Of a stretch of 64,000 bases of DNA, positions 41,884 to 61,398 are shown in pieces. Under the pieces are notes generated by a model. It searched no databases. It saw only the letters and a program-made list of their open reading frames with translations, and was not told the origin of the DNA. The stretch is from positions 32,427 through 96,426 of the forward strand of contig JAAWQX010000007.1 of NCBI GenBank assembly GCA_022800755.1. The letters run 5' to 3'. A program made the translations under genes and the position numbers. The stretch comes from Oscillospiraceae bacterium (GTDB lineage: Bacteria; Bacillota; Clostridia; Oscillospirales; Oscillospiraceae). Numbering within the stretch: position 1 is the first letter of the stretch; the number at the start of each line of letters is the position of its first letter.

Positions 41884-41915
41884 AATAACCGCTCCTTTCA
41901 AATAATCCATAATTA

Positions 41916-44398: not shown

Positions 44399-47300
44399 TT
44401 ATATTTTCCCGGATGCGAAATCCGAGTAGCTTACGATTTTGCTCCGCTTTCCGAAGTATTGGGACTGGAGCATGACGGACAGGTCCACTGAATCAATGAT
44501 GCTGCTACCGTTCAGATCCGCGATCGGCAACACCGCGTCCCTTACGCTTCGTCCAAAGTTTTCCGACCGCAGCAGGATGCTCATGTCTACCGAGTCAACC
44601 GTACCGTTGCTGTTCAAATCTCCTACATATAGTTCGATCGTCGGCAGCGTCAGGTCCGGCATCGCTTCCGTAACGGTCAGGCCCGTGATCGTATACGAGG
44701 TGTGGGCATCTTTCGTCACCACCATGTCATAGGTGCCGAACCGCACACCCTCCAGCGTGTACGCCTCCGCGCTTTGTCCGATCGCCTGGATGCCGGGGAT
44801 CGTTACCTGCATCACCGCCGCCCGCGCGTCGCGGGGGGCGCCTGACTGATACAGCGTAATCGTGGTTTCCTGTGTGGGGTTCCAACTGCTCACACGACCG
44901 GAAATGTTCAGGCCTACGCGGATGTAGCTCACCTGCACACTCACGTTTTTGTCCGGCATGTTGAAGGTATACGTGTAATACGAAATATCGCCGTTGCCAT
45001 CCTCCACCGGGCTTGCCGTGACCGCACTTCCCGCTACCGTGAGCGTTTTCAGCTCGTAGCCCTTTTTCGGCGTTACCGTCAGGACGATCTCCGTGTTGGT
45101 GGCTGCTGCCGGGGTGTTCGTCGTGACCTGGCCGCCCTCCGCCTGCTGGATATTGATGATGTGGTATGACGAGTCGCCCTCCATCACCGTTACAGTGTAC
45201 GTTTTCTTGCTCCCGTCATCCGCTGTCACGGTATACGTCACGGAGCTGGTGAAGTCCTGTGCCACGCCGGACTGGGGGCTGACCGTCGCGCCCGTAGAGA
45301 GCGTGATGATCGGCGTCATGCTGGTCACCACCGTGCCTTTCGGGACGAATACGGTGATCGTCCCACTGTGCTCGTCGATGTAGCTGGTATAGTTCTCGCC
45401 CAGGTTGAATCGGATGATCGCTTTATTGCTGTCCAGTTTGTTTACCCGGAGTACCGCCTGCGCTGACACGCCGGAGAATCCACCGATGGTCACAACACAG
45501 CGGAACAAATGCGTATCATCGCCGCTGGTGGTCACATCTATTTTATAGACTTTGCCCGTCGCGCCGGTGATATTGCTCCACGTCCCTCCGAAATCGCTGG
45601 ATGACTGCCACTGGTAGGTCGCCGCCGCATCCGAAACTGACGTGGTGAAGCGAGCCTCCTGTCCCTCGGTCACGGTCACCGCGCCGGGACTGCTGATGGC
45701 CGCCCAGACAGCGTACAGCGTTACGCTCCCCGCGCCGCCTGGAGTGCTCAAGTTCGTGACCATCGCTTGATCTCGGTATTCGGCCGTGGACGCGTTTTGG
45801 TTTAGCGACCAGCCCAAGAACACATGTCCGGTCCTGGTCATAAACGCGCCAGAGCCATTTCGATTGGTGTTGAGCGTCACGGCCGTATCATAGGACGCCG
45901 TCGTCGGAAGCAATGCGCCCGTACCGCCATTGGCGTCATAGTTGATGGTATAGCCGCCCGCTGTCCAATGGGCGTACAGCGTATGGGCTGTGGTCGTTTT
46001 CACTTGGGTATCCGTTGTAACCAGAGCACCCGAAGCGTCCGCGCTTGTGTACCAGCCGGCGAAGGTATAGCCATTCCGGGTCGGATTTGCCGGCAAGCTG
46101 GTATATTTACCGTCATACTGTACAGTAATTGTTTCTTGCTTGCCATCCCATTGATAATCTAGTGTGACCGAAATGCTTTCCGCCTGCCAATGGGCATAGA
46201 GGACGTGATCCGTAAGATTTGTAACTTCTGCACCCTCGCTGATCTGCGTTCCTCCTTCGGCTACGGTATACCAGCCGAGGAATTGATAGCCTTCCCGCAC
46301 CGGTGTAGGCAATGCGGGATACTTCACAATTCCATTCGCTTCGGAAAATGTGTCCGGCGAGCTTTCTTCCTGCAACAGGATATCAAGATTCTCGTCCCCA
46401 ACTTCATCGGGAATTGCCGCAGTGGATTCGTCTTCCGGGCTTTCAACAGGAAGCTGCCCTTCCTCTGACGCTTCTTCGACCGGCGGTTCCGTCTGGCTTT
46501 CGTCAGCTGATTCCTCAATCAGCAATTCCTCTATGGATGAATCATCATCCGGTGCAGCCACAGACAGCAGCTGCGCAAAAGCTTCCTCGTTGACCGCCGC
46601 CTCCTCCAGGAGCTTGATAATTAAAAATGTGGGGTCAACTGTGCCGCCCTGGGCATCCAAAGTCACTCTGATCTCATTGCTCTGATTCCAGCGGGCATAC
46701 AGCGTATGGTCCTCAGCTGTGGACACCACAGTATCTGCCGTCACCATCACAGCATCGTCCGCCTCCGACGTGTACCATCCGGCAAAATTTTCCGCGTTCG
46801 CAGGTGTCGGCAGCATTCCGTATTTCTCTCCGAACGTCACGTTTTGGGCTTCTATCGTCTCACCGGCGCAGGAAAAACTTACCTGGTAACTGTTCGCCGT
46901 CCAGTGGGCGTACAAATTTTGGTCAGCCGTAAGTTCCACCTTTGTCGTTGTTTCCACCAGAGTGCCGCCAATTGACGCGGTATACCAACCGGCGAACGTG
47001 TAGCCAGTCCGTTCAGGATCCGTCGGCAAGCCGCCGTAGGTGCCGCCGTTGACGACAATGATCTGCGTTGTATCATGGTCTTCCGCGCCGTCCTGGTATT
47101 CCAGATGCACCGTAAACGTTTTTTCGCTCCAGAATGCGTACAAGGTATGTGCCTGCTCTTTCGTCACCGTGGTATATGGCATGATCTGGTCGCCTTGTCC
47201 GTTCGGTTCTGTAAACCAGCCCACAAAGGTGTACCCGTTGCGTTCTGCGCTTGGCAGGGTCCCATACTGCGCGCCGTAGCTGACCGTCACGCTGCCGTCT

Positions 47301-50300
47301 GCTGTGGCACTGTCTTGATAGTCCAGCGTTACAATGACCTCTTTCGCTTTCCACCGGGCGTATAGGTCGTGGCTGCTGGGATTCGTTACCGTGGTCTCCG
47401 CAGTGATCTGCATACCACCGACAGATTCCGTGGTAAACCAGCCGAGGAAATCATAGCCCGTCTTCTGCACCTGCGGCAGTTCGCCGTATTTCTGTCCGTA
47501 AATGATGCTCTTGCTGGTCATTTCCGTTGTTCCCGGCACCGTGCTGCCGCCCATCTTCTGGAACGTCACCACCGAGCCGCTGGCCACCCAATGGGCATAG
47601 AGTGTATGGCTGTTGGCATTTGTCACCGGCGTATCGGCTTCAATTTTTGTACCCTGGCCATTTTCTTTCGTATACCAGCCGGCAAATTGGTAACCGACCT
47701 TGGTGGGCGTGGGCAAAATGCCATAGGGTTTGCCAAACTGAACCCCGGCTTTGGGAACCGTGTTGCCGCTGTCAGCGCCGGCGTAATCGAAGGTCACCTC
47801 GATGCTGCTTTCCACCCACAACGCGTAAAGCGTTTGATGTGCATCATCCTGCACATTCATTTTGTCCAGCTTCACAATATCGGAAGACTGAATCTGTGTT
47901 CCCATCGCTTTTATCGGGAAGGTCCACCAACCGTCAAACGCATATCCATCCCGGGCCGGCAGCGACAGGTTATACGGTTGGTCATAGGTGACCGTAATGG
48001 TATAAGGTTCAAAGCTGCTGGCGCTGTCTACGAGCTTCACCGTAAGCGTATGGGCAGTCCACCGGGCATACAGCGTATGCCCCCTCGCAGTCTGCACAGT
48101 AGATTCCGCAGTGACCGGGTTTCCGCTTATCTGTGCGTCATACCAGCCCGCGAAGTCATAGCCCGTTCGTACAGGCGACGGCAAATCGCCATACGCCGCG
48201 CCGTAGGTCACGGTTTTTTGCGTATCCCGTGTGTCGTCCACGGTGCCATCCTGATAATCGTATGTCACGGTGTACGTTTTCGGGGTCCAGTGGGCATACA
48301 GCGTAATATCCGTAATCGTCGAAACCTTGTCTGTCGCGCCGATTAGTGTCCCACCGGTCGGCTCCGTAAACCAGCCCACAAAGTCATAGCCGGTCCGAGT
48401 GGGGGTAGGCGTAAGGCCGTATTGGCCGTCAAATTCCACCTGCCGCTTAGTCTCGCTCACTTCGCCGCCGTTGGCATCAAAGCTTACAAAAATCGACTTC
48501 GCTTCCCAGTGGGCATCCAGCGTATGATTTCTGGCCGTGGTCATTTTCTGGCCCTCTGTGACCTGTACAGCATCGTCCCCTGCCGTGAACCAGCCCAGGA
48601 AATCATAGCCGGTACGCGCTGGTGTCGGTAATCCGGAATAGTAGGCATCATAGAAGATTTCCATGCTTTCTGGTGTGTATCCGCCGCCCGCTACGCCGTA
48701 GTTAAATGTCACGGTATATTTGATCGCCGTCCAGCGGGCATAGAGCGTATGGGCTTCCGGGTTCGTCACTCTGGTACCCGTATTAATCAAATCGCCCTCT
48801 ACCGGAAGCGTATACCAGCCGGCAAACAAATACCCTGTGCGCGTGGGGATTGGCAGAGGATCATAATTGCCGTCAAAGGTGAATTCCGCCGTATCCCCAA
48901 AGCCATCCGGCGCATCGCCGTTGAGATAATCAAAGGTCACAGCGATCGATTTTGCGGACCAGTGGGCGTAGAGCGTATGATCTTCCGCGGTTTTTACGTT
49001 CACCGTTTCATCGCCGTCTACCCGTACAGCGTCATCCGCCGTGCTGAGATACCAGCCTGTAAACTGATAGCCGGTCCGTGTCGGCGTGGGGAGCGTCACC
49101 TGACTGTAAGGTTCGTCATAGGTGAGCGTGACTTTATTGTCCGTCAATGCGTCGCCCTGGTTGGGGTCCAGTGTCACTTCATACGTTTTCGGTGTCCAAT
49201 GGGCGTATAGCTTGAGTTCTCCCGTTTGCGCCACGCGGTCAGATTCGCCAATGACCGTTCCATTCTCTTTATCCGTATACCAGCCGACAAACTCATAGCC
49301 TGTGCGGGTAGCTACGGGCAAATACGGCCAATACAGGTCACCGTAGTGATACATGACAACCTTGAAACTCTTATCTTCGCTCTCGCTGTTCTCGATCACA
49401 CCATTGGGCGCTTCAAAAACCACCTTCAGGTCTTCGCCGATCCAATCGGCATACAGCGTGTGATTGTCCGCAATCGTCACAAGGCTTTCCGCCGTAACTT
49501 CAACGCCAGCGCCGTTGGCCTGTGTATACCATCCGCCGAATTCATAATTGCTCTTTTGCGGTACCGGCAGACTGCCGTATGCGCTGCCGAAGGTGACGGT
49601 CCGCGTCGTTTCTGACATTTCTCCGCCATCAGCGTCCTGATAATCAAACGTCACCTGATATTCATTGGCCTGCCATACCGCGTACAGGGAGACCTCTTCC
49701 CCGGCAACCTCTGTCAAATCGTCTGTGAGCGAATTTGCATAGGCAGCCTCGCCATCCGCGCTCTGTGCCCAGCCTTGGAACGTGTAGCCCTCCCGGGTAT
49801 AACCACTCATGGGCAGCGCCGCAGCGGTTGCGTAGGTTTTCGATACGGATGTTTCCGCGCCCTCTGCCGCCGTACCGCCATTGGCATTGAGCAGGACCGT
49901 ATAAACATTTGTCTGCCAGTGGGCGTACAGCGTGCTTGTGTTATCCGTGATTTTCACCACGGTTTCGCCGTTGACCAGCTCGCCGTTTTCCGCTTCCGTG
50001 TACCAGCCAAGGAACGTACGGCCGGTCCAAATCGGCGTGGGCAGGTTGGAAAACACTTCGTCATACGTGACCGAGATCGTCGCGGGTTCCAGCGGGCTGC
50101 CGCCGTTCACATCCATCGCGACGCTGTATGTATTGGCCGTCCATATCGCCGTTAAGGTATGGTCTCCGGCAAATGATACCTGGGTTCCCGCTGTGATATC
50201 GGTACTTCCTGCCTCCGCTATCAAGCGCCAGCCCGCAAATGTGTAACCTGCGCGGGTGGGTTCGGGCAATTCTGGGTATGCCGCGTCAAATACCACATCC

Positions 50301-53300
50301 ACCATGGACGAGTCTACCGCGTCGCCGCCGTTCACGTCCAGCATTACGCTGTACGTTCTTGCCGTCCAGTGGGCATATAAGGTCTGTTCGGCTGTGATCT
50401 CAACATTGGATTCCGCCGTGATCTGATCGCCGTCCTCCGCCGCGGTAAACCATCCGGCGAATTCATAGCCCGTCTTGTTCGGTGCGGGCAGGGTGCCGTA
50501 AGCGGCATCATAGGTCACTTCCAAGCTGTCGTTCTTCAGCGGGTCGCCGCTATTGACGTCAAAGGTCACGGTATATTTGTTCGCTTCCCAAGCAGCGTAT
50601 AGCTGCTGAGTCTGGGTAATGGTAACGGGCGTCTGGTCATTCACCAGATTACCGTCGCTCTCTGCGTCATACCAGCCCAGGAATCGGTATCCGATCCGGG
50701 TCGGGTCTGGGAGATCAGCATAGGTCCCGCCATAAGTCACCTGAACCGTATAGTTCTCTAACACACCACCCTTGGAATCCAACTGCACCGTATACTGGTT
50801 CGCTTCCCAATGTGCATAAAGATCATGATCGCCCGCAGTCCCTACCAAAGTCTCATCCGTGACCGCGGTACTGCCGTCCTGAAGATACCAACCAACAAAA
50901 TGATATCCCGTCTTGTCCGGCACGGGCAAGGTTCCGTACGCCGCATCAAACACCACGTCCTTCGTTTCCTGGCTTACGGTGCCGCCGTCACATTGGAAAC
51001 TCACCTGATAGGTATTTGCACTCCAGCGAGCATACAGCGTATGGTCATGGTCGATATCCAGTTTTGTCTCGTTGCCATGGATTTGGTTTCCAATGATTGG
51101 ATTGCCCTCGCCGTCCGTATCATTGTCGTCAGCCCGGTCAAACCAGCCCTGGAACGTGTAGCCCGTGCGGACTGGTGTAGGAAGCCTGGGATACACCTGC
51201 CCAAACACAACACTGGTCTTTGTTCCCTCTCCGCTTAAGGTTCCGCCATTGGTATCCAACGTAACCTGATATGTATTCACGCTCCAACGGGCATACAAGG
51301 TCAGCTCGTCATTCGTGATCTTCACGGTGTCCGTAGGCTTATATTCCGTCCCGCCGGTTTCTTTAAACGTATCGAACCATCCCTGGAATGAGTATCCTTT
51401 TCTCACCGGGGTGGGCATCGCGGCGTACGTATCGTCATACGTGAACGAAACCTGAACCGTTTCATTTTCTCCGTCCAGATAATCGCCGTTGTTCGGATCG
51501 AAGGTCACGGAATACTGGTTTGCCGTCCAATGGGCGTGCAATTCGTGGTCTTCCGCAGTCCGCACGACCGTATCCGCGGTAACTTCCGCCGAATCCCCGG
51601 TCTCGTCAAAATGCCAGCCGGCGAAGGTATAACCCGTGCGGGTGGGGGCCGGGAGCGCGCCGTACGCGCTGTCATACACCACCGGTTTGGTCTGCTCATC
51701 CGCCGCGCCGTCCGCACCGTGATACACATACGTTACGGTGTATTCGTTCGCGGTCCAATGGGCGTACAGCGTCTGGTCTGCCGTGATTGCCACGGCGCTG
51801 CCCGCTGTGACTTCACTTCCGCTGTCAGCCGCGGTATACCAACCCGCGAACGTATAGCCTGTGCGGGTCGGCGTGGGCAATTCACCGTAGACGCTGTCAT
51901 AGGTCACGGTCTTGCTGTCCGTGGTGACTTCGCCGTTTTCCCCGTTGGGATCAAATGTCACGGTGTACTCGTTCGCTTCCCACACCGCGTACAGCGTCAC
52001 GGTCGCGCCATCCTCCGCCGTCAGGTTCTGCACTTCCCCGGCATCCGCATAGTCAGCCGTACTCGCACTTTGGTCTTTCGACCAGCCCAGGAACGTATAG
52101 CCCGTGCGGGTAAACTGGTTCTTGCTCAAATTCGCCGACGCGTCATATGTGGCGGACATACTCCCCATCGTTCCTTCGCCCTGATTGGCGTTGAACGCGA
52201 TGGTGTAGATATGAGGCGTCCAGTGAGCGGCGATATACCGACCGGACTCGGCCGTGTTTACCGTGTCATTCGTAACAGCATCGGCTCCGTTCATCGCGTC
52301 ATTTACGCTGCTACCGCGATACCATCCGGCAAAGTCATAGCCCGTGCGGGAACACACCGTCGGGAGACCCTGGTTGTCAAACATGGTGGCATACTTCTCG
52401 TCCGTATCCACTTCTGTAGACGCGGTCTCCGCACCAGAGATTACATTACCCGTCCCCGGCACTGTAAACTGGCCGCCGTTGGGATAGAGCACGAAACCAC
52501 TCGTCTCCGCCTGCCACAGGGCATACAGGGTATGAGCTTTCGCGGTGGTCATTTTCGTACTTTCCGTCACCACTGCGCTGCCAAACGAATTTCCTACCGC
52601 CCATCCCTGGAAGATGTATCCCGCTCTGGTCGGTTCCGGCAGCGTGCCGTAGCTACCGTCATAGGTGACCTGTTTGCTCGCCGTTCCTACCTGCGCGGTA
52701 TTCGTTCCGCCGTCATTTCCGTCAAACGTCACCGTATATTCATTGGCGGTCCACTTGGCGTATACCTTGAAATCCTCAGTCTGTGTCACGGTCGTGCCGG
52801 CTTGGATGCGGGTCCCGCCGCCGTTGGGTGCAGTCCACCATCCGCCAAAGGTATAACCGGTCCTGGTAGGCGTTACCAACGTGCCGAAGGTGCTACCGTA
52901 TGTGGCTTTGCCCGACACTGTGGTGTTGTTGCCCGTCGCGCCTTCGTATTCGTAAATAACGCTGACCTGGTCTCCCTGCCAGCGGGCGTACAGGGTGTGG
53001 TCCTCATAACTGCCTACCGTCGTACTCTGCAAGACCCGCTGTCCGCCAGTTTTCGCCGTGTACCAGCCAAGGAACGTGTAATGCGCCCGCGTCATCGTCT
53101 CGGGCAGTTCGGTTCCATAGGGGCTGCCGTAAACCGCCGCCATGGTTGGGAAGCCCTGCGTCGTGCCGTTATTGGGGTCCAGCGTGACGGTCACGCCCTT
53201 GCCCTGCCACTGGGTATAGAGGGTGTGGTCCATCGCCATCGATACCGGAGTCGTGGCCGTTACCAGCTTCGTGCCGGCAGCATCCGTACTCCAGCCTTTC

Positions 53301-56300
53301 AGAGTATAACCCTCTCGCTCCGGCTGGGGAAGCGGCCCATACGGCTGACCGTAAGTCACTGAGCGGGACATCTCAAGAAATCTGGTATTGTCCACGCCCA
53401 CGTAGGAAAACGTAACCGTATACGTGTTAGCCTGCCATACCGCGTACAAATTCAGCGTACCGCTCGTGGCGAGATTTTTCACACCCGTCTGCCCATCGAT
53501 ATAGTCCGCTGTTGTGGCGTTCGCGTTCGTAGACCACCCCAGGAACGTATAGCCAATGCGGTGGAACTGGTTCTCCGGCAAATCAAATGCGGTATCATAG
53601 GTGGCGCTGGTGTTGGTCATCGTTCCGCTGCCACCAGTAGTGCAGTTGATATTGTACTTCACCGTGTACTTGTTCGCGGTCCAATGCGGAGCCAAATATT
53701 GGAGACGCGGTGTAGTATTGACTGTATCGTTCGTGACTCGTGTGCCGCCTATTTCTGCACCTGTCTGACTGTTACTACGGAACCAACCCGCAAACGTATA
53801 CCCTGTGCGGCTCGGCGTCGGCAGGCCGTTTCCGTTAAAGCTTGTGGAATACTTCGCGTCATATTCTACCGATGTGCCGCAGTGGTTGTTCCCGCTGATT
53901 GTCACTTGGCTCGACGGGTCGAAAAAACTGCCGCCGTTCGGATACACATAGTGCGTATACGTGTTCGCGGCCCACACAGCGTACAGCGTCACGCTGCTGC
54001 CCTCGGTCGTCGTCAGGTCTGTGCTCAGCGTGGTGGTATACGCCGCGGCAGTCGCACCGGCAGTCGTGGCCCAGCCCTTGAACGTATAGCCCGTGCGGGT
54101 CGGCGCGCCGCTGCCGGTTTTGGGCAGGGTCAGGTTTGTGCCGTAAGTTTTCGTCAGGCTCATTGTGGTACCCGCCGTCGCGGAGGTAGCATTTTTATCG
54201 AAATTCACCGTATAGGTGTTCCCTGCCCACTTCGCGTACAGCCGCACGGTACCGTTATTGGTCGCCGTCAGTTTGGAGACCTGCTTCTGGTCCGTATGTA
54301 CCATGCTCCCAGTGCTGCTCGTGGCCCAGCCCAGGAACTTGTAGCCCGTTCTGCTGAACCTATTCTGTGCCAGGTTGAACACCTCGCTGTACTTTTTTAC
54401 AGAACTGGCCATCGTACCGGTGGCATCCGCGTGGTTTTTATCATATTCCACCGTGTACTGGTGCTCCGTCCAGTGGGCGACGATGTAACCGGTACTCGTC
54501 TGATTCATGGTGCTGCTGTTGGTGATTTTTGTACCGCCGCTTTGTGCAGTCGACAGGTTGGTACTGCGGTACCAACCTGCGAACGTATACCCCTCACGGG
54601 TAGGCGTAGGCAGACCCTTTCCGCCAAAGATGGTGGAATATGCTTTGCCGTAAGTACCCGATGTGGTACTTCGACCATTTCCGCTCACCGTTGTACCGCT
54701 CACCGGATCTGTAAAACTGCCACCATTGGGATACACATACTGCGTATAGGACTTCGCTTCCCACACCGCGTACAAATTGACCGTAGCGTTATTCGTCGGG
54801 GACAGCATAGAGACCGATTTCTGGTCCGTATGCACTACGCTTCCCGTGCTGCTCGTAGCCCAGCCCTTGAAGGTGTAGCCCGTGCGGGTAAACGTATTCT
54901 TGCCCAAAGTGAACGTATCGCTGTAGTTGTGCGTAGAGCTCGCCATCGAGCCGCTGCCGCCGTTGGCGTTGTATTTTACTGTGTATTGGTGCTCCGTCCA
55001 GTGCGCGGCCAAATAACTGGTGGTCGTTGCTGTATTGACAGTGCCGTCTGTGACTTTTGTGCTGCTGCTTTGCGCTGACGCCAAGGAGTTTCCACGATAC
55101 CAGCCGGCAAAGGTATAACCAGTGCGGGTCGGTATCTGCAGGCCGTATCCATCAAAAATCCAGCTATATTGTTGGTTATACTTCACTGATGTACTAGTAT
55201 ACCCACTGCCGCTGATCGTCTTTTTGCTCACCGGGTCCGTAAACGTACCGCCGTCGGGATAAACATAATGGGTAATCGACTTCGCTTCCCACACGGCGTA
55301 CAGCGTCACGGTATCGTCCTGGGTCGTTGACAGGTCTGTGCTCAGCCCCATGGTATACTGTGCCGCCGTCGCATCGGGCCTTGTAGCCCAACCCTTGAAC
55401 GTGTAGCCCGTGCGGGTCGGTATGGAATCGCCCGCGGAAGGCAGCTGCAAGGTGCTTTGGTAGGTCTTGGTCAAGCTGCTTATGCTGCCTGCCGTCGCAC
55501 TGTCGGCATTTTTATCGAATGCCACCGTATAGGTCACAGGTACAACGTCGGCGATCAGATCGGCACTGGGGCTGCCATTGATCCATACGCCTTCCTCCAC
55601 CCAGCCAGGCACACTGCCTTCAACGCAGCTTCCATCGGCGTTAAGCACCTTTGTGCCGTCCGAGGTAAAAAAGCCGCCGCACGTATAGCCGGTAGGGATA
55701 GTCGAGTCAAAATCGGCTTTGTTGCCGCCGATAGCGATGCGCATGTTCCTAATGTAGGTTCTGGCGCCGCCGGAAAGCGCGATCTCGCGCTTAAAGGGTG
55801 AAACAGCTTCCCCCAAAGCATTGCCGGAGTTATCGATACAGGCGTTCGTAGCGGTGCTGTTCCCATTGATCGAACCCGCCGTAGTAAATCTGTAGCTGCT
55901 GGCGTTGGTGCTACGGCCGCCTCCAGCTCCACCGTAGGTGTAGTTGGTAGTGATATAGGTATTATAGCTCGGCAGAGACCTCATATGGGGGTATGTATTC
56001 CCCGTGGATTTCCCACCACTTGTCTTGCCGGAGCCGCCATAAGATCCGCCGTTGATATCCCCGTAGCATCTGTCTTGCTCGGATAATTTGTCGCTTGTAA
56101 GCGAGTGGATCATCGCAGAGTCATATTTATAGTACCGCCATCCAATACTGTCGCCATTGCCAGGTGCGCCGCCGCCACCGCCGCCGCCACCGCTGCCAAT
56201 AGGCGCACCGTCATATCCGCCGCCACCGCCGCCGCCGCCAACAGCGCCGGAAATGGAATAGTTCAGATACTCATAGGTGTTGGACCCACTCGTAATCTTT

Positions 56301-57370
56301 TCATAGTCATCAATCGCGACTGCAGTCCCGCTCCTCAGGGTCGATTTACCGGCAGCGCCCGCGGTGCCGCCCGTGCCGCCGACTAAGGTTAAATTAGTGT
56401 TCGTTCCGATGACCGCGACAAAGCCATAGAACTCACCACCTTCTTCGCCGTCCTGACTAATAGCACCGTAATCCACTGTGGTTAATCTCAACTTCGCATG
56501 GTTAAAAACTGATGTGCCGTCATGTGACCTTGGCGAATTTGGATTCACAGTATAAAGGGCATGGAAGGTACCCGTATTATAGCTAGAGTTGCCGACATAA
56601 ATAAAATCCCCACCGAAATCCCCGAAGTTCTTGCCGAAGTCTCCTACGATGCCTCCTGGCACGGTTTGATCTCGAGTTCCCCGTTCACCCACATCAGGCG
56701 TTCGCAAGCCGCCGTTACCACCGAAGCCGCCGATTGCGGCTGCTCCGCCGCCGCCACCCGCGCCGCCGTATCCGCCGGGTCTGAGCTTGATTGTGACACT
56801 TGTTGCAGTCCCCTTATCATCCGATATCCAATCCGATTTCGACAGAGCCGAACTGGTAAAGTCTTGATAGTAAGAGGTATCTCCGCCGTTTCCGGCCGGC
56901 GTTCCGTTACCGCCTTTGGCAGCTACGGTACCGCCGCCGCCGCTGTCCACAATGATGAGCGACCCACCGGGCTTTATGTAAATACCCGGCGTCGAAGGTT
57001 TAATAATGTCATCTCTAGAAATTGATGTCCATTGTTTTTTCAAATATACACCATTCGCGCCCTGACAGGTCAGCGTGTGACCGCACAGGTCAATCACCAC
57101 GTCGCCTTCGATGACAAGGGCCATACCACTCGCCTTGTCCACCCCCGTAAGTGTCGTCTTATAGGGCGTCGCTATAACGGTATAATGATCCGACAGGTAG
57201 TACATACCAGTAGTTAGGACCCTTTCTCCCTCGGTATAGCCCGAAAGTTCCTGCGGCACTACAATATTATCATCCGCAGCTTTTGCCGGCAGCGCAAGCC
57301 GCGGCATCAGGCTCATCACGATTGTCACCGCGAGAGCCATGCTTAAAAAACGTTTCCAAATCTGATGCAT
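44399..57370 (-). CDS. Giant secreted surface protein: about 40 Listeria-Bacteroides repeats and a C-terminal dockerin
   Basis: 4323 residues in one intact frame. A signal peptide (1-32, ending LALPAKAAD) is followed by a region with beta-helix-like segments and glycine-rich loops (about 50-500), then about 40 tandem repeats of roughly 75-95 residues (about 610-3890) with the core RTGYTFAGWYT and closing LYAHWTAN, the InlB B-repeat/LB_rpt family (PF09479). C-terminal modules are an Ig-like domain (about 3893-3977), a cadherin-like domain (to 4063), a bacterial-repeat module, a CnaB-like segment and a type I dockerin (about 4247-4310; GDLNSNGTVDSVDMSILL and ADLNGSSIIDSVDLSVML). It is probably a wall-displayed stalk or adhesin. 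AGGAGG lies 13 nt before the ATG, rather far. Confidence 0.9.
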   Translation of the reverse strand: MHQIWKRFLSMALAVTIVMSLMPRLALPAKAADDNIVVPQELSGYTEGERVLTTGMYYLSDHYTVIATPYKTTLTGVDKASGMALVIEGDVVIDLCGHTLTCQGANGVYLKKQWTSISRDDIIKPSTPGIYIKPGGSLIIVDSGGGGTVAAKGGNGTPAGNGGDTSYYQDFTSSALSKSDWISDDKGTATSVTIKLRPGGYGGAGGGGGAAAIGGFGGNGGLRTPDVGERGTRDQTVPGGIVGDFGKNFGDFGGDFIYVGNSSYNTGTFHALYTVNPNSPRSHDGTSVFNHAKLRLTTVDYGAISQDGEEGGEFYGFVAVIGTNTNLTLVGGTGGTAGAAGKSTLRSGTAVAIDDYEKITSGSNTYEYLNYSISGAVGGGGGGGGYDGAPIGSGGGGGGGGAPGNGDSIGWRYYKYDSAMIHSLTSDKLSEQDRCYGDINGGSYGGSGKTSGGKSTGNTYPHMRSLPSYNTYITTNYTYGGAGGGRSTNASSYRFTTAGSINGNSTATNACIDNSGNALGEAVSPFKREIALSGGARTYIRNMRIAIGGNKADFDSTIPTGYTCGGFFTSDGTKVLNADGSCVEGSVPGWVEEGVWINGSPSADLIADVVPVTYTVAFDKNADSATAGSISSLTKTYQSTLQLPSAGDSIPTRTGYTFKGWATRPDATAAQYTMGLSTDLSTTQDDTVTLYAVWEAKSITHYVYPDGGTFTDPVSKKTISGSGYTSTSVKYNQQYSWIFDGYGLQIPTRTGYTFAGWYRGNSLASAQSSSTKVTDGTVNTATTTSYLAAHWTEHQYTVKYNANGGSGSMASSTHNYSDTFTLGKNTFTRTGYTFKGWATSSTGSVVHTDQKSVSMLSPTNNATVNLYAVWEAKSYTQYVYPNGGSFTDPVSGTTVSGNGRSTTSGTYGKAYSTIFGGKGLPTPTREGYTFAGWYRSTNLSTAQSGGTKITNSSTMNQTSTGYIVAHWTEHQYTVEYDKNHADATGTMASSVKKYSEVFNLAQNRFSRTGYKFLGWATSSTGSMVHTDQKQVSKLTATNNGTVRLYAKWAGNTYTVNFDKNATSATAGTTMSLTKTYGTNLTLPKTGSGAPTRTGYTFKGWATTAGATAAAYTTTLSTDLTTTEGSSVTLYAVWAANTYTHYVYPNGGSFFDPSSQVTISGNNHCGTSVEYDAKYSTSFNGNGLPTPSRTGYTFAGWFRSNSQTGAEIGGTRVTNDTVNTTPRLQYLAPHWTANKYTVKYNINCTTGGSGTMTNTSATYDTAFDLPENQFHRIGYTFLGWSTNANATTADYIDGQTGVKNLATSGTLNLYAVWQANTYTVTFSYVGVDNTRFLEMSRSVTYGQPYGPLPQPEREGYTLKGWSTDAAGTKLVTATTPVSMAMDHTLYTQWQGKGVTVTLDPNNGTTQGFPTMAAVYGSPYGTELPETMTRAHYTFLGWYTAKTGGQRVLQSTTVGSYEDHTLYARWQGDQVSVIYEYEGATGNNTTVSGKATYGSTFGTLVTPTRTGYTFGGWWTAPNGGGTRIQAGTTVTQTEDFKVYAKWTANEYTVTFDGNDGGTNTAQVGTASKQVTYDGSYGTLPEPTRAGYIFQGWAVGNSFGSAVVTESTKMTTAKAHTLYALWQAETSGFVLYPNGGQFTVPGTGNVISGAETASTEVDTDEKYATMFDNQGLPTVCSRTGYDFAGWYRGSSVNDAMNGADAVTNDTVNTAESGRYIAAHWTPHIYTIAFNANQGEGTMGSMSATYDASANLSKNQFTRTGYTFLGWSKDQSASTADYADAGEVQNLTAEDGATVTLYAVWEANEYTVTFDPNGENGEVTTDSKTVTYDSVYGELPTPTRTGYTFAGWYTAADSGSEVTAGSAVAITADQTLYAHWTANEYTVTYVYHGADGAADEQTKPVVYDSAYGALPAPTRTGYTFAGWHFDETGDSAEVTADTVVRTAEDHELHAHWTANQYSVTFDPNNGDYLDGENETVQVSFTYDDTYAAMPTPVRKGYSFQGWFDTFKETGGTEYKPTDTVKITNDELTLYARWSVNTYQVTLDTNGGTLSGEGTKTSVVFGQVYPRLPTPVRTGYTFQGWFDRADDNDTDGEGNPIIGNQIHGNETKLDIDHDHTLYARWSANTYQVSFQCDGGTVSQETKDVVFDAAYGTLPVPDKTGYHFVGWYLQDGSTAVTDETLVGTAGDHDLYAHWEANQYTVQLDSKGGVLENYTVQVTYGGTYADLPDPTRIGYRFLGWYDAESDGNLVNDQTPVTITQTQQLYAAWEANKYTVTFDVNSGDPLKNDSLEVTYDAAYGTLPAPNKTGYEFAGWFTAAEDGDQITAESNVEITAEQTLYAHWTARTYSVMLDVNGGDAVDSSMVDVVFDAAYPELPEPTRAGYTFAGWRLIAEAGSTDITAGTQVSFAGDHTLTAIWTANTYSVAMDVNGGSPLEPATISVTYDEVFSNLPTPIWTGRTFLGWYTEAENGELVNGETVVKITDNTSTLYAHWQTNVYTVLLNANGGTAAEGAETSVSKTYATAAALPMSGYTREGYTFQGWAQSADGEAAYANSLTDDLTEVAGEEVSLYAVWQANEYQVTFDYQDADGGEMSETTRTVTFGSAYGSLPVPQKSNYEFGGWYTQANGAGVEVTAESLVTIADNHTLYADWIGEDLKVVFEAPNGVIENSESEDKSFKVVMYHYGDLYWPYLPVATRTGYEFVGWYTDKENGTVIGESDRVAQTGELKLYAHWTPKTYEVTLDPNQGDALTDNKVTLTYDEPYSQVTLPTPTRTGYQFTGWYLSTADDAVRVDGDETVNVKTAEDHTLYAHWSAKSIAVTFDYLNGDAPDGFGDTAEFTFDGNYDPLPIPTRTGYLFAGWYTLPVEGDLINTGTRVTNPEAHTLYARWTAIKYTVTFNYGVAGGGYTPESMEIFYDAYYSGLPTPARTGYDFLGWFTAGDDAVQVTEGQKMTTARNHTLDAHWEAKSIFVSFDANGGEVSETKRQVEFDGQYGLTPTPTRTGYDFVGWFTEPTGGTLIGATDKVSTITDITLYAHWTPKTYTVTYDYQDGTVDDTRDTQKTVTYGAAYGDLPSPVRTGYDFAGWYDAQISGNPVTAESTVQTARGHTLYARWTAHTLTVKLVDSASSFEPYTITVTYDQPYNLSLPARDGYAFDGWWTFPIKAMGTQIQSSDIVKLDKMNVQDDAHQTLYALWVESSIEVTFDYAGADSGNTVPKAGVQFGKPYGILPTPTKVGYQFAGWYTKENGQGTKIEADTPVTNANSHTLYAHWVASGSVVTFQKMGGSTVPGTTEMTSKSIIYGQKYGELPQVQKTGYDFLGWFTTESVGGMQITAETTVTNPSSHDLYARWKAKEVIVTLDYQDSATADGSVTVSYGAQYGTLPSAERNGYTFVGWFTEPNGQGDQIMPYTTVTKEQAHTLYAFWSEKTFTVHLEYQDGAEDHDTTQIIVVNGGTYGGLPTDPERTGYTFAGWYTASIGGTLVETTTKVELTADQNLYAHWTANSYQVSFSCAGETIEAQNVTFGEKYGMLPTPANAENFAGWYTSEADDAVMVTADTVVSTAEDHTLYARWNQSNEIRVTLDAQGGTVDPTFLIIKLLEEAAVNEEAFAQLLSVAAPDDDSSIEELLIEESADESQTEPPVEEASEEGQLPVESPEDESTAAIPDEVGDENLDILLQEESSPDTFSEANGIVKYPALPTPVREGYQFLGWYTVAEGGTQISEGAEVTNLTDHVLYAHWQAESISVTLDYQWDGKQETITVQYDGKYTSLPANPTRNGYTFAGWYTSADASGALVTTDTQVKTTTAHTLYAHWTAGGYTINYDANGGTGALLPTTASYDTAVTLNTNRNGSGAFMTRTGHVFLGWSLNQNASTAEYRDQAMVTNLSTPGGAGSVTLYAVWAAISSPGAVTVTEGQEARFTTSVSDAAATYQWQSSSDFGGTWSNITGATGKVYKIDVTTSGDDTHLFRCVVTIGGFSGVSAQAVLRVNKLDSNKAIIRFNLGENYTSYIDEHSGTITVFVPKGTVVTSMTPIITLSTGATVSPQSGVAQDFTSSVTYTVTADDGSKKTYTVTVMEGDSSYHIINIQQAEGGQVTTNTPAAATNTEIVLTVTPKKGYELKTLTVAGSAVTASPVEDGNGDISYYTYTFNMPDKNVSVQVSYIRVGLNISGRVSSWNPTQETTITLYQSGAPRDARAAVMQVTIPGIQAIGQSAEAYTLEGVRFGTYDMVVTKDAHTSYTITGLTVTEAMPDLTLPTIELYVGDLNSNGTVDSVDMSILLRSENFGRSVRDAVLPIADLNGSSIIDSVDLSVMLQSQYFGKRSKIVSYSDFASGKI
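45700..55540 (-). repeat. Tandem coding repeats of the giant protein (about 40 copies)
   Basis: By hand I count 40 copies of the GYxFxGW...LYAxW unit. The first eight or so are longer and alternate two types (YVYPDGGTFTDP-type and YTVxFDKNA-type), which suggests duplication of a larger block; later copies are shorter and more diverged. Confidence 0.85.
46300..46620 (-). other. Acidic insertion inside repeat 38
   Basis: About 100 residues rich in E, D, S and P (for example ESADESQTEPPVEEASEEGQ) interrupt one repeat between its first strand (VTLDAQGGTVDP) and its core (REGYQFLGWYT). No other repeat has such an insert. Confidence 0.8.
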
Positions 57371-57406: not shown

Positions 57407-58327
57407 TTACATAAACCGTTCAGCGCGCGGCTGAGCGGGATTGATTTCATACCGTCTGGGCTGGCGCAGTTTGGTCTTACCCGCACATACCGGGCAGCCG
57501 CACCGCATTTTCCCTGTGCGAGAATAGATCATCGCTTTCCATACATGCCCCTCGCTGCACTGCCACCAGACTTTGCGCCGTGCGCCCACACCGACCTGCT
57601 CCGACGTGAGCGGAGCGTTCAGCGTTGGGTGCCACTGTGCCGCGATTTTAGGTTCCAAAGTCGCCAAGTCGTTGAAGCCCGCCAGTACGCGCCGTCCCGC
57701 GCAATAGGGACAGCCGTCTCCCCGGGTCGTCCGGTGAGACACCGGGGCTACATACTCATGCCCCTCTGGGCAGCACCACCATACCCGACGATTACTGCAA
57801 ACGGATACCCCATCCGCGCGCAGATCGCCGTTTTTTGTTGGGTGCCACTGCTCCGCTAACTCCGGGAACGCGCTGGCCATATCGTTTTCTCCCTGCACGA
57901 TCACTTTCCCCGCGCATACTGGACAACCTGTATGATGCATACGAGAAACTACGGCAGCCTGCCATTCATGGCCCTTGTCGCACTGCCACCACACCTTGCG
58001 CCGAGTCCCCGCCATCACGTCACAGGGCAGCAAATCGCCGTTTTTCGTTGGATGCCATTGCCGCGCGATATCCGGGTAGACAGCCGCCAAGTCGTTTTCG
58101 CCCAATTGGAGCCGCCGATGCGTGCAGACCGGGCAGCCGCACCCGCTCACCCGCGACTTTACAATGGCTTGCCATTCATGGCCCTTGTCGCACCGCCACC
58201 ATACTTTCTGATGGCTCCCCGCAGAAACCATATCCGGCGTCAAGCCCGCGTTTTTCTTTGGATGCCACTGGCGCAGCAGTGTATCATCTGACCGCGACCA
58301 ACATACTTCATACAGTGAGCCTTTCAT
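57407..58327 (-). CDS. Four-repeat DUF4379 (zinc-ribbon-like) protein
   Basis: A 306-residue protein made of four copies of a module of about 68 residues: QWHPxKN, then VWWxCxxGHEW, then GCPVCAG (for example VWWQCDKGHEWQAAVVSRMH and TGCPVCAGK). The paired CxxGH and CPxC motifs indicate zinc-binding ribbons (PF14311). There is no signal peptide, so it should be cytoplasmic. ATG 58327 has GGGGGAGG 5 nt upstream; GTG 58333 is an alternative. It is the first gene after the invertible promoter segment and is followed 36 nt later by the giant gene. Its role is unknown; nucleic-acid binding is a guess. Confidence 0.85.
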   Translation of the reverse strand: MKGSLYEVCWSRSDDTLLRQWHPKKNAGLTPDMVSAGSHQKVWWRCDKGHEWQAIVKSRVSGCGCPVCTHRRLQLGENDLAAVYPDIARQWHPTKNGDLLPCDVMAGTRRKVWWQCDKGHEWQAAVVSRMHHTGCPVCAGKVIVQGENDMASAFPELAEQWHPTKNGDLRADGVSVCSNRRVWWCCPEGHEYVAPVSHRTTRGDGCPYCAGRRVLAGFNDLATLEPKIAAQWHPTLNAPLTSEQVGVGARRKVWWQCSEGHVWKAMIYSRTGKMRCGCPVCAGKTKLRQPRRYEINPAQPRAERFM

Positions 58328-58393: not shown

Positions 58394-58415
58394 AGACAAA
58401 ATGAATATTTTGTCC
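58394..58415. repeat. Left inverted repeat of the invertible segment (site L)
   Basis: 22 bp, the exact reverse complement of 58634-58655. The core is two 8-bp palindromic arms, GACAAAAT and ATTTTGTC, around an asymmetric GAAT centre, the form expected of a tyrosine recombinase crossover site. Confidence 0.92.
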
Positions 58416-58493
58416 ATTCTCCGCGGCGATTTTTTCGATAAGAATTAAAAATTATCAAAAAAATCTGCCTGTGACTTCCTTACACGCAAAAAA

Positions 58494-58553
58494 TGGGCAG
58501 GCAAATTAGACCGTTTGAAAAAAATTCTTTAAACGGTCTAATTTGCCTGCCCA
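58494..58553 (-). terminator. Long hairpin terminator inside the invertible segment
   Basis: Perfect 23-bp arms (58494-58516 and 58531-58553) with a 14-nt loop. On the minus strand it is followed directly by T6, so in the present orientation it should stop leftward transcripts from the recombinase side. In the other direction no T-run follows. Confidence 0.85.
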
Positions 58554-58569
58554 AAATTTACAAAAAGTC

Positions 58570-58598
58570 TTGAAATTTACGTTGAGTGGTGTTATAAT
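58570..58598 (+). promoter_or_regulatory. Invertible promoter
   Basis: TTGAAA (58570-58575) and TATAAT (58593-58598), 17 bp apart. It faces right, away from the surface operon and towards the 3' end of the recombinase gene on the opposite strand. Confidence 0.85.
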
Positions 58599-58633
58599 AT
58601 CACCGCTATATAGGATGTTTTCTTGTATGTATA

Positions 58634-58655
58634 GGACAAAATATTCATTTTGTCT
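58634..58655. repeat. Right inverted repeat of the invertible segment (site R1)
   Basis: 22 bp, the exact reverse complement of site L, with ATTC in the centre. Confidence 0.92.
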
Positions 58656-58685
58656 GTTTTGCTAACTCCGCTCCACCATGCCTAT

Positions 58686-58707
58686 GGACGGAATATTCAT
58701 TTTGTCT
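58686..58707. repeat. Third recombination-like site (R2)
   Basis: Matches site R1 at 20 of 22 positions (positions 5 and 6 differ) in the same orientation, 52 bp further right. It overlaps the recombinase stop codon (58706-58708). Confidence 0.8.
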
Positions 58708-59545
58708 AACTTACCAACCCTAATTTATCCAATCTCCGCCGATGCTCTGCGCCTGTGGAAATAAGATAGATTCGGGTTGTTTCTATACTGGAATGCCCCA
58801 AAATATCAGCCAAAAGCACAATGTCCTGATTCGCCTTATAAAATACTCTGGCAAATAAATGCCGCAAATTATGCGGGAATACCTTATCTGGGTCCACCCC
58901 CGCTTCACAGCATAACGCTTTCATTTCTGCCCAAATTTGTTTTCTGGATAAACTACTGCCGTTTTTGGTGAGAAATATCTCGCCGGAAACGATTTTTTGC
59001 TTTTTGGCATATTTCAGCAGCTTTTTGCACAGCTTCACCGGCAGCAAAATCGTCCGAATTTTCCCTTTCAGCGCAATTTCCGCTTTCCCCTGCCGCGCGG
59101 CTTCCACTGTAAGGTAGCGGATTTCCGACACGCGCACGCCTGTCGCGCAAACTGCTTCCATCAGCAGCGCCAGCCGTTCCCGGCCCAGTGCTTGCGCGGT
59201 CCGCACCAACTGTTCGTACTCCTGCACTGTCAGCTCCCGGCTCTCGCTGCAAAATATCCTCCGCTGTACCTTCAGCAGACGCACCCGACACTCCTCCCAT
59301 CCAGCAAAGCGAAAAAATCCGTTGAGCGCCGAAAGTTTCGCGTTGATTGTGGTCACTGCGTAACCTGCTTCCTGTAAATGCGCTTTCCAAGCCGCGGCAT
59401 TGTCTTTCGTCACCGCCTGCTCCCCTATCCAGACTGAAAAATCCTGCACATCGCAAATATACTTTGTGATTGTAGCCATGCCCCGCTCTTCCTGCCGCAA
59501 AAATTCCTCATATGCTTTCAGCATTGATATGGTGATTTGTTTCAT
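58706..59545 (-). CDS. Tyrosine recombinase (site-specific integrase family)
   Basis: A 279-residue recombinase. The N-terminal SAM-like core-binding domain (about 1-90) is followed by the catalytic domain with Arg in CATGVRVSEIRYL, Lys in ALKGKIRTILLP, HNLRH (H-x-x-R), GHSS and the nucleophile Tyr in TRIYL, so it looks active. ATG 59545 has TAGGAGG upstream. Its size and its position beside an inverted-repeat-bounded promoter identify it as the likely DNA invertase of the switch. It is not a phage-type integrase with extra arm-binding domains. Confidence 0.93.
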   Translation of the reverse strand: MKQITISMLKAYEEFLRQEERGMATITKYICDVQDFSVWIGEQAVTKDNAAAWKAHLQEAGYAVTTINAKLSALNGFFRFAGWEECRVRLLKVQRRIFCSESRELTVQEYEQLVRTAQALGRERLALLMEAVCATGVRVSEIRYLTVEAARQGKAEIALKGKIRTILLPVKLCKKLLKYAKKQKIVSGEIFLTKNGSSLSRKQIWAEMKALCCEAGVDPDKVFPHNLRHLFARVFYKANQDIVLLADILGHSSIETTRIYLISTGAEHRRRLDKLGLVS

Positions 59546-59614
59546 ATACAGCCTCCTATCAGCCATTTAGTTTCCCACCTGGCTTATCTTTTTAGTCAAT
59601 GGGTGTATTCCTTA

Positions 59615-59840: not shown

Positions 59841-59916
59841 TGGTGGAGACGAAGAGGATCGAACTCTCGACCTTACGGATGCGAACCGTACGCTCTCCCA
59901 GCTGAGCTACGCCCCC
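59841..59916 (-). tRNA. tRNA-Ala (anticodon CGC)
   Basis: A 76-nt cloverleaf on the minus strand: acceptor GGGGGCG with CGTCTCC including the G3-T70 pair that marks tRNA-Ala, anticodon stem TACGG/CCGTA with loop TTCGCAT (CGC), T-arm GAGAG-TTCGATC-CTCTT and an encoded CCA. It reads GCG codons. Confidence 0.95.
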
Positions 59917-60030: not shown

Positions 60031-61398
60031 TTATTTCGCCAGTTCCACAGTATAGCCCAAAGCCCGCAGTCCTGAGATGATCCCGCCGGGATCTGTCATA
60101 TGTCCGGCACCTACCGCCATGAATACGGTATGGCTCCCCTCTTGCTCCAAGTACGCAGCAGCGGCCCGGATCATACCCGGATCGCGGTCAGTAAACAACC
60201 GAGACTGTAACTCGTCATCACTTTCCACAATCGCCGCTTTATCATAAAACTTCACAAACGCATCCGGGTCACGGTCTTTCCAAGAAGAAAACATCCCCGC
60301 CATCATCTTTTCGTTCAGTTCCGCAGCAGCAGCGACCTCCGGGTCTGGTTCTGCGCCCTCCAGTGTCGCTTCATAGAGACTCAGTGCCGCATCCAGATAA
60401 GTCTCCTGATATTCCTCGCTCAAGGTATCAAAAATATTGCACTGGAATTCGTACGTCTCTACACCCTCAACAGGAATCCCTGCCCAATCAGCCAAGCTGT
60501 TCGCATATAGGTCCATAGCCATAGCGTTACTGCTGCTGGTGTCATCCAAAGACGACAAAACCGTAAAGCTGTTGCTCAAAGCCCACGGCTTATAGTAACA
60601 AAAATCTTCTTCCTCCATACCCATATCGGTCATAGCCTTTGACACACGGGCATACAGATCAGCACTGATATGGTCGGACAGTTTGCTGCCATCAGAATAT
60701 ACCTGCTTCGCCGCAAATACCGCTGCCTCCTCCGCATCGTTAAAATTCAGTTCAAACGCTACGGTCTCCGCCCCGAGCACCGCATCCCGCACAGACTTAT
60801 GCAAAGGATAGATGTTACTGCGGTCCACATGGATGGTCCCCAACAGATAAAGCGTATTGTCTCCATTAGTCGCCTTCCATAAAAGCCCCTTAGAACCGGC
60901 ATTCAGGCTGTCATATACCGCCAAAATCAAACGCTGGGCCATCGCCGCGGCTTCCTGATAGGTACACACCCGCTCCGCCGCCAGGCCAGTCCCGTCGCCC
61001 TGAACCACGCCAAGGCCCGTCAGGAACGCCTCCGCACCAGATTCAACGCCGGGAAGCACGTAGTCCGCACAGACCTGATACAGCGCGTTCATCACGCCCC
61101 CGCGGGTGGTATCAATCACCAGCGCCGCGCCGTCCACCGTCCGCTGGGGCAGTTCCAGCACCGCCAGCTTGTTGGCCACGATTTCTGTCACAGCATCTAA
61201 TTGCTCTTCGCTGATCGGATCGTTGATATAAAATCCATAATCGTCATCGATCAGTCCCATAGCATAGCAGTCGGCCACAGCGCTGTAAAACCACGGCGCT
61301 GGCAGCTGGGCTTCCGCTTCCTCCGCCGCCAGTGCGGGAGCGGTCATCAGCACTGCCGCCAATGCGGCGGCCAGGAAACGACAAATCATTCGCTTCAT
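60031..61398 (-). CDS. TraB/GumN family protein, secreted
   Basis: A 455-residue protein with a signal peptide (1-24, ending APALAAEEA), an SLH-like stretch (about 35-80; WFYSAVADCYAMGLI) and a TraB/GumN domain from about residue 170 (LLWKATNGDNTLYLLGTIHVD, with the conserved histidine) to the C-terminal VGAGHMTDPGGIISGLR. TraB/GumN proteins belong to the Tiki/erythromycin-esterase-like fold and may be metalloproteases; the substrate is unknown. A promoter (TTGAAA 61446-61451, TATGAA 61423-61428) and AAAGGAG precede it. Confidence 0.82.
   Translation of the reverse strand: MKRMICRFLAAALAAVLMTAPALAAEEAEAQLPAPWFYSAVADCYAMGLIDDDYGFYINDPISEEQLDAVTEIVANKLAVLELPQRTVDGAALVIDTTRGGVMNALYQVCADYVLPGVESGAEAFLTGLGVVQGDGTGLAAERVCTYQEAAAMAQRLILAVYDSLNAGSKGLLWKATNGDNTLYLLGTIHVDRSNIYPLHKSVRDAVLGAETVAFELNFNDAEEAAVFAAKQVYSDGSKLSDHISADLYARVSKAMTDMGMEEEDFCYYKPWALSNSFTVLSSLDDTSSSNAMAMDLYANSLADWAGIPVEGVETYEFQCNIFDTLSEEYQETYLDAALSLYEATLEGAEPDPEVAAAAELNEKMMAGMFSSWKDRDPDAFVKFYDKAAIVESDDELQSRLFTDRDPGMIRAAAAYLEQEGSHTVFMAVGAGHMTDPGGIISGLRALGYTVELAK

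Follow-up and report, generated by a model that had tools for sequence, protein, structure and literature searches.

Architecture of the locus

The window analysed here is the whole stretch of 64,000 nucleotides from contig JAAWQX010000007.1 of an Oscillospiraceae bacterium (assembly GCA_022800755.1), probably a gut member of the Clostridia that is uncultured. The elements on which the analysis is based are listed below by window position, with strand and type of evidence.

42064..44382, - strand: SLH-domain anchor protein, 772 aa (domain search)
44399..57370, - strand: giant surface protein, 4323 aa (37 matched Listeria-Bacteroides repeat stretches)
44471..44623, - strand: dockerin-like C-terminus of the giant protein (E 8e-4, under the Pfam cut-off)
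57407..58327, - strand: DUF4379 leader gene with an ATG start, first in the switched operon (four treble-clef domains)
58394..58655, no strand: predicted invertible segment, 262 bp (sequence and comparative orientation)
58394..58415, + strand: left inverted repeat, operon-side recombination site (sequence)
58494..58553, - strand: strong hairpin behind the promoter, terminator-like on the - strand (fold and sequence)
58570..58598, + strand: sigma-70-type promoter motif TTGAAA-17-TATAAT, directed toward the recombinase, operon OFF (motif scan)
58605..58998, + strand: predicted OFF-state antisense RNA of about 390 nt (both ends deduced from promoter and hairpin)
58634..58655, - strand: right inverted repeat, recombinase-side member of the perfect pair (sequence)
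58686..58707, - strand: third, imperfect copy of the site, with the same core, adjoining the recombinase stop codon (sequence)
58706..59566, - strand: tyrosine recombinase, 286 aa, predicted invertase of the segment (Pfam Phage_integrase, 1.6e-24)
58960..58991, + strand: antisense terminator-like hairpin within the recombinase coding sequence, 14 pairs followed by a T-run (pattern scan and conservation)
59841..59916, - strand: tRNA-Ala upstream of the recombinase, followed by two terminator-like hairpins (Rfam)

An earlier reading of the sequence alone had placed perfect 22-bp inverted repeats around a segment of 262 bp, and this is borne out: the letters AGACAAAATGAATATTTTGTCC and GGACAAAATATTCATTTTGTCT, at 58394-58415 and 58634-58655, match over 22 bp without mismatch. 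Each site is itself palindromic, and the left one contains a 6-bp core, TGAATA, at 58402-58407. When the 20-bp site was searched in the window, three copies were found, two exact and one with 2 mismatches (58687-58706), against none in 100 shuffles; an extra site with the same core is also present in 5 of the 71 related cassettes described below.

The same reading had a promoter between the repeats facing away from the DUF4379-giant-SLH operon, and the promoter-motif scan confirmed it. The motif at 58570-58598 has 11 of 12 matches, with a TG ahead of the second hexamer, and its -10 box lies 36 bp from the repeat that it faces. Taken alone it is weak evidence, since the surrounding region holds 5 promoter-like sites and shuffled sequences give 3.3 +/- 2.2; the claim is carried by the comparative data. 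A weak opposing motif (9 of 12 matches), located within the segment at 58458-58429 on the - strand, points toward the operon in the assembled state.

Behind the promoter, the hairpin at 58494-58553 has arms of 29 bp and a U-run past the stem on the - strand. Folding of the surrounding 101 nt gives -52.8 kcal/mol, with a z of -11.5 on the - strand, and the structure would be expected to keep transcription of the recombinase gene from continuing into the operon. Terminators behind the promoter, on either strand, were found in 32 of 67 related cassettes, against 13% of controls; at that frequency, such a terminator was dropped as a general trait of the family.

A tyrosine recombinase gene had been reported to start 50 bp beyond the repeats. 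The gene is indeed there, but it is the stop codon, not the start, that sits at this distance, the start codon being at 59566. As the gene lies on the - strand, promoter and recombinase are convergent, and in the assembled state the promoter is aimed at the gene from its 3' side. The reading frame is open, and the Arg-Lys-His-Arg-His-Tyr positions, whose roles we presume, are kept and invariant across an alignment of 8 sequences. In an Rfam scan tRNA alone reached the gathering score; three matches to two microRNA families at the hairpin were far under cut-off. Upstream of both the recombinase and the tRNA-Ala, a TraB/PrgY/GumN-family protein is encoded at 60031-61398, with a weak SLH match under cut-off.

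On the operon side, the N-terminus of the giant protein resembles, by eye, a signal peptide. The dockerin match at its other end scores 19.9 bits (cut-off 22.9) and includes two stretches similar, by eye, to calcium repeats; in the SLH protein a cohesin-like N-terminal region (44080-44253) reaches 24.4 bits, with a cut-off of 24.1. Given this dockerin-like C-terminus and this cohesin-like N-terminus, a cohesin-dockerin bond between the giant and SLH proteins may keep the fibre attached to the cell. Past the operon, at 41023-41910, a short-chain dehydrogenase is encoded, the nearest models for which are those of 7alpha-hydroxysteroid dehydrogenases, with scores under their cut-offs.

Sister cassettes in the same genome

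The recombinase of the window is one of five of its kind in the genome; the remaining four are 58-65% identical to it. Each of the five adjoins its own inverted repeat pair, with repeats 240-254 bp apart. All ten paired sites have perfect GACAAAA-6-TTTTGTC arms, while the core is private to each cassette. Of the four other cassettes, three have the stop codon directly next to the recombinase-side repeat, and in one the two are 12 bp apart.

The next gene encodes a DUF4379 protein in all five cassettes, three of these genes being full and two cut at contig ends. In the three full cassettes a repeat protein of 3592-4323 aa follows; among the sister giants, the dockerin match reaches 24.5 bits in the one on contig C24, and none is listed for the one on C23. 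Two contigs, C33 (L018:1-120) and C25 (L019:19880-20000), both end in the same DUF4379 start, which probably reflects two near-identical copies beyond that point, not told apart by the assembly. By position-limited scoring, the promoter is directed toward the recombinase in 5 of 5 cassettes, which could therefore be locked; in the L020 cassette both strands tie at 8.6 when the position limit is removed.

Related cassettes and the core of the site

A recombinase match at E <= 1e-40 was found in 27 of 99 related genomes, and from a scan of species genomes the best 80 of 421 recombinase relatives were taken. The first set of loci comprised 113 entries, from which 12, too short downstream, and 8, for which the script found no repeat pair, were left out; from the second set, of 33, 12 and 2 were left out on the same grounds. 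The resulting 112 entries with a repeat pair were reduced to 81 close-family cassettes by removing distant (below 56% identity) and identical ones. A registered site pair was obtained for 71 of the 81, and none for the other 10.

Within these 71 pairs, no mismatch was found at any of the six core positions, while arm positions 1, 19 and 20 were mismatched in 32, 20 and 22 pairs respectively; sites had been paired when 14 or more of 20 positions agreed, which favours matching sites, though with core and arms weighted alike. When partners were shuffled among cassettes, identical cores were found in a mean of 3.3 pairs and a maximum of 10, compared to 71 of 71 for own partners. The core is not uniform over the family: 43 versions occur among the 71 cassettes, and its positions differ between cassettes in 16 to 72% of comparisons. 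A core invariant within pairs would be the expected outcome if strands were exchanged over a 6-bp overlap, and exchange across the 6-bp core is the mechanism that we infer from these alignments.

Cores kept distinct within each genome, as a barcode against cross-talk, were also considered. The same core is shared by 1 of 23 pairs of cassettes within genomes and by 80 of 2462 between genomes, so that no sign of avoidance is seen, and the idea was discarded. In genome G023, a single core is common to many duplicated cassettes. This genome carries 15 more distant recombinases (L150-L164), several in near-identical cassettes whose promoters, by score, lie in both orientations; several of the cassettes lead into proteins with an N-terminus that looks, by eye, type IV pilin-like.

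Promoter orientation among relatives

Orientation was assigned by scoring promoter motifs, restricted to those located 25-85 bp from the repeat that they face. Out of the 71 cassettes, 52 were called OFF (promoter toward the recombinase) and 15 ON (toward the operon), with 4 unclear. In 39 of the 67 oriented cassettes (30 of 52 OFF, 9 of 15 ON) the -10 box lies 45-48 bp from the faced repeat. A score of at least 8.4, combined with a strand difference of at least 1, was reached by 62 of the 71 cassettes and by 7.2% of Markov controls; the strand difference by itself was reached by 29% of controls. Eight of the 15 ON calls score at least 9, as do 2.4% of controls, and the remaining seven are under 9.

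Direct comparison of segments gave 22 reversed alignments out of 125 aligned pairs, a figure in which duplicates are counted and G023 pairs included. The best case within the close family is that of L126 and L135, paralogous cassettes of one genome, whose segments align in reverse over 170 bp (E 2e-20). On the recombinase tree, 12 orientation changes account for the 15 ON cassettes, so that orientation is scattered over the tree.

Contig ends were also evaluated. In a congener (G001), contig C12 breaks off 3 bp beyond one site; a site of identical core lies 3 bp into contig C16 and is followed by a DUF4379 gene, and neither contig includes the segment. Contig ends at two repeats suggest the effect expected of mixed orientation in the assembly, and contig ends, those of G001 included, may come instead from repeats between paralogues. 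Over the 80 loci, ends within 150 nt of the recombinase number 7 downstream and 1 upstream. Within 600 nt the counts are 8 and 9, so the excess is confined to the closest class, and it was given up as proof of mixed orientation. The contig ends useful for this question, in or right at a site, are those of G001 (C12/C16), L052, L099, L085, and G023 (C42 and C8).

The sequence-only reading, according to which the operon is phase-variable and assembled OFF, is thus supported as the best reading of these data by five cassettes of the same layout and by both orientations among relatives. Not part of that reading were the convergence of the recombinase, the conserved terminator-like hairpin inside its gene and the sister cassettes. 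As the evidence for mixed orientation comes from the relatives, flipping of 58394-58655 itself is an extension from them, and inversion of the 262-bp segment at this very locus appears very likely.

A further motif, TATGTA, occurs within 30 nt past the -10 box in 35 of the 67 oriented cassettes (1.7% of shuffles), in 23 of the 35 at 8-12 nt. It is commoner in OFF (32 of 52) than in ON cassettes (3 of 15; p 0.007), and could be either a cis element for orientation bias or the mark of a subfamily. In the window the corresponding stretch is 58599-58633, and a TATGTA falls just beyond the 30 nt tested.

An antisense hairpin within the recombinase gene

Starting from the assembled promoter, the predicted antisense RNA would include about 290 nt complementary to the 3' end of the recombinase message. 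No + strand terminator-like site is listed between the promoter and 58960, where the intragenic hairpin begins. Of the 71 recombinase genes, 64 carry a terminator-like hairpin on the antisense strand at a distance of 250-259 nt from the stop codon, against 3.7% of synonymous-codon shuffles. On the sense strand of the same region such hairpins occur in 0 of 71 genes, and elsewhere in the gene in 0-1 of 71; as a further control, among 22 other long open reading frames of the window, 2 of 162 windows were terminator-like. By this test the hairpin is absent from 7 of the 71 genes, including those of two cassettes of the window's own genome, L019 and L021. In the distant cassettes of G023 the terminator-like sites, where found, lie 23-32 nt from the stop codon.

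In the alignment of the 71 genes, 94.9% of stem cells are able to pair, and 9 of the 14 pairs have changed on both sides. None of 500 column shuffles, which preserve the make-up of columns but not relatedness, reached any of five stem measures, and partners slid along the alignment pair in 42-48% of cells. When the 3' arm was swapped between genes, a mean of 12.7 of 14 positions still paired, compared to 13.3 with the own arm; the stem is hence largely a matter of plain sequence conservation, with covariation as a modest part.

The strand is indicated by the wobble pairs and the folds. Wobble cells are G-U in 177 cases and A-C in 20, which fits the antisense strand; stem cells pair in 94.9% when read as antisense and in 79.1% when read as sense; and the antisense fold is lower than the sense one in 65 of 71 genes. 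Lysine codons within the U-tract are AAA rather than AAG in a ratio of 129:31, against 497:717 elsewhere (p 8e-22).

Leader genes

The first gene within 450 nt of the operon-side repeat was classified in the 71 cassettes as recombinase-like in 18, DUF4379 in 16 (two of them assigned by hand, the gene being cut by a contig end), AP2-like in 3 and none of these in 34.

When 22 recombinase-like leaders were aligned with three active recombinases, no Tyr was seen in them at the catalytic column and no His at the last His column either (L111 has no letters at these columns). The PHNLRH motif is mostly replaced by NPRCLRK or a near variant, the first Arg being kept in several leaders; the roles of the residues at these catalytic columns are those that we assume. 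A structural model of one such leader is assigned a recombinase fold by Foldseek. Examples are found at L108:7135-7986 and L070:5078-5932 (among L070-L149 and others).

The DUF4379 leader was modelled as four repeats. Their solved relatives are proteins of trypanosomatid mitoribosomes, on account of which the leader may bind RNA rather than DNA.

Among the oriented cassettes, 13 of 36 with a DUF4379, AP2-like or recombinase-like leader are ON, compared to 2 of 31 others (p 0.007). After clustering of the recombinases the association gave p values of 0.046, 0.028 and 0.016 at 75, 80 and 85% identity, and 1.0 at 70%; a tree-paired test, with 3 pairs on supported branches, had no power. These figures give no more than a hint that leader type is tied to the ON state.

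Strong matches to the recombinase-like leaders (at least 288 bits) number 7 in the 99 relatives. Five of them have a recombinase of the family upstream, at a distance of about 2.1 kb or less; one of these recombinases is cut by a contig end, and one of the leaders has an internal stop and stands behind a DUF4379 gene. That leaders are confined to switches was considered and rejected, because 2 of the 7 strong matches are not so placed, and DUF4379 genes also occur elsewhere.

Other first genes were noted. L064 is a cassette with a different inverted repeat, behind which (at about +310 from the recombinase stop codon, and at L064:2955-3812) a CsrA-like protein and next a flagellin-like one were noted by eye. 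The first switched gene appears by eye to be helicase-like at L130:1309-3831 and L059:2-1132, and such genes are possibly phase-variable defence genes; helicase-associated domains were matched in 1 of 32 scanned leaders, presumably that of L130. An HU-like DNA-binding protein is the first open reading frame after the switch at L073:7266-7541, and Bac_DNA_binding matches 1 of the 32 scanned leaders.

Comparison with known systems

The fimS switch of E. coli, acted upon by FimB and FimE, is an invertible promoter for surface fimbriae, and its orientation affects fimE expression by acting, in a Rho-dependent way, on the fimE message that extends across the switch. To our knowledge fimS has no intrinsic antisense terminator within the recombinase gene, whereas the cassette of the window has a terminator-like one. 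In Bacteroides, UpxY proteins act as antiterminators. Their genes are the leaders behind invertible capsule promoters, so that, as here, a regulator gene is within reach of the promoter (PMC11892184). The leaders described above differ from UpxY, being DUF4379, AP2-like or recombinase-like proteins without the catalytic tyrosine, and are putative regulators.

In C. difficile, RecV is likewise a tyrosine recombinase flipping short segments between inverted repeats ahead of surface structures (cwpV, flagellar; PMC5903667, PMC2784873). Unlike RecV, which serves several separate sites, the five cassettes of the present genome each have their own convergent recombinase beside one repeat.

A close description, in PMC11892184, is that of 33 invertons, 32 of them from Clostridia, which are tied to one tyrosine-recombinase group and for two of which shifts in orientation are reported. 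They form inverton group 139, with invertase group 35, in which a tyrosine recombinase lies within 5 kb. An example from Intestinimonas butyriciproducens, with repeats 241 bp apart, shifts in culture, and mucin carriers differ from the supernatant. Both have a tyrosine recombinase near a segment bounded by inverted repeats, and the family of the window is probably the same as group 139 and invertase group 35. In the passages considered, the description of group 139 mentions neither an antisense hairpin nor an invariant core nor recombinase-like leaders (PMC11892184). For the antisense hairpin and the recombinase-like leaders, a literature search, mainly of papers outside subscription, yielded no description that was recognised.

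Proposed mechanism and alternatives

The repeats, the convergent recombinase, the sister cassettes, the invariant core, the two motif orientations and the hairpin can be read in the sequences themselves, and on them the following scheme is built. The recombinase would flip the 262-bp segment by way of the 6-bp cores of the repeats. In the OFF state the promoter would read into the 3' end of the recombinase gene, and an antisense RNA of about 390 nt would stop at the intragenic hairpin; this RNA could lower the amount of recombinase by duplex formation or by collision, and a lower amount would make for a stable OFF state. In the ON state the promoter would drive the DUF4379-giant-SLH genes, and with the antisense RNA absent the recombinase would be released. 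The leader gene, in turn, might feed back on the switch or on the operon.

The different parts of this scheme deserve different degrees of trust. That the recombinase flips the promoter segment and so switches the operon, the OFF promoter likely making an antisense RNA ended at the intragenic hairpin, we hold to be probable. A tentative extension, which we put forward as possible, is that of a self-locking memory with two states, in which the OFF antisense RNA silences the invertase, and the ON state drops this brake, the leader feeding back while the giant fibre is built.

The alternative that survives best keeps the same invertible promoter, and so is not exclusive of the preferred scheme on that part, but gives the hairpin no regulatory role: it would merely stop stray transcription from the OFF promoter. 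Such insulation is conceivable, though we would not call it probable. The terminator-like sites of G023, 23-32 nt from the stop codon, fit simple insulation, and in the window the hairpin would end transcription ahead of the upstream tRNA-Ala and its neighbours; yet a spot outside the coding sequence would suffice for this purpose, while in 64 of 71 genes the site is well inside the gene, and codon choice is shifted at the hairpin.

It is improbable that the switch is decayed or locked, with repeats and recombinase as relics and an operon that stays OFF in this lineage. The OFF scores of all five cassettes of the genome would agree with it, as would the third, degenerate site beside the working pair, but they are set against the perfect arms of all ten paired sites, an open recombinase frame in which the Arg-Lys-His-Arg-His-Tyr positions are kept, and relatives in both orientations. 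Least probable, the repeats would be regulator operators or attachment sites of a mobile element instead of inversion sites: each site is palindromic, as operators often are, but an identical, asymmetric, inverted core would be needless in an operator, and yet it is shared within 71 of 71 pairs in 43 versions, with the promoter between the sites in both orientations.

The layout on which the preferred scheme is built is common to at least 71 non-identical cassettes, most of them from Oscillospiraceae or Clostridia. If the self-locking memory holds true, five units of the kind operate in parallel in a single genome. Should the antisense brake be real, the position of the promoter would govern the surface operon and, at the same time, the amount of its own invertase; this could account for the prevalence of OFF (52 of 67 oriented cassettes), and would provide a handle on how commensals time the display of very large surface proteins.
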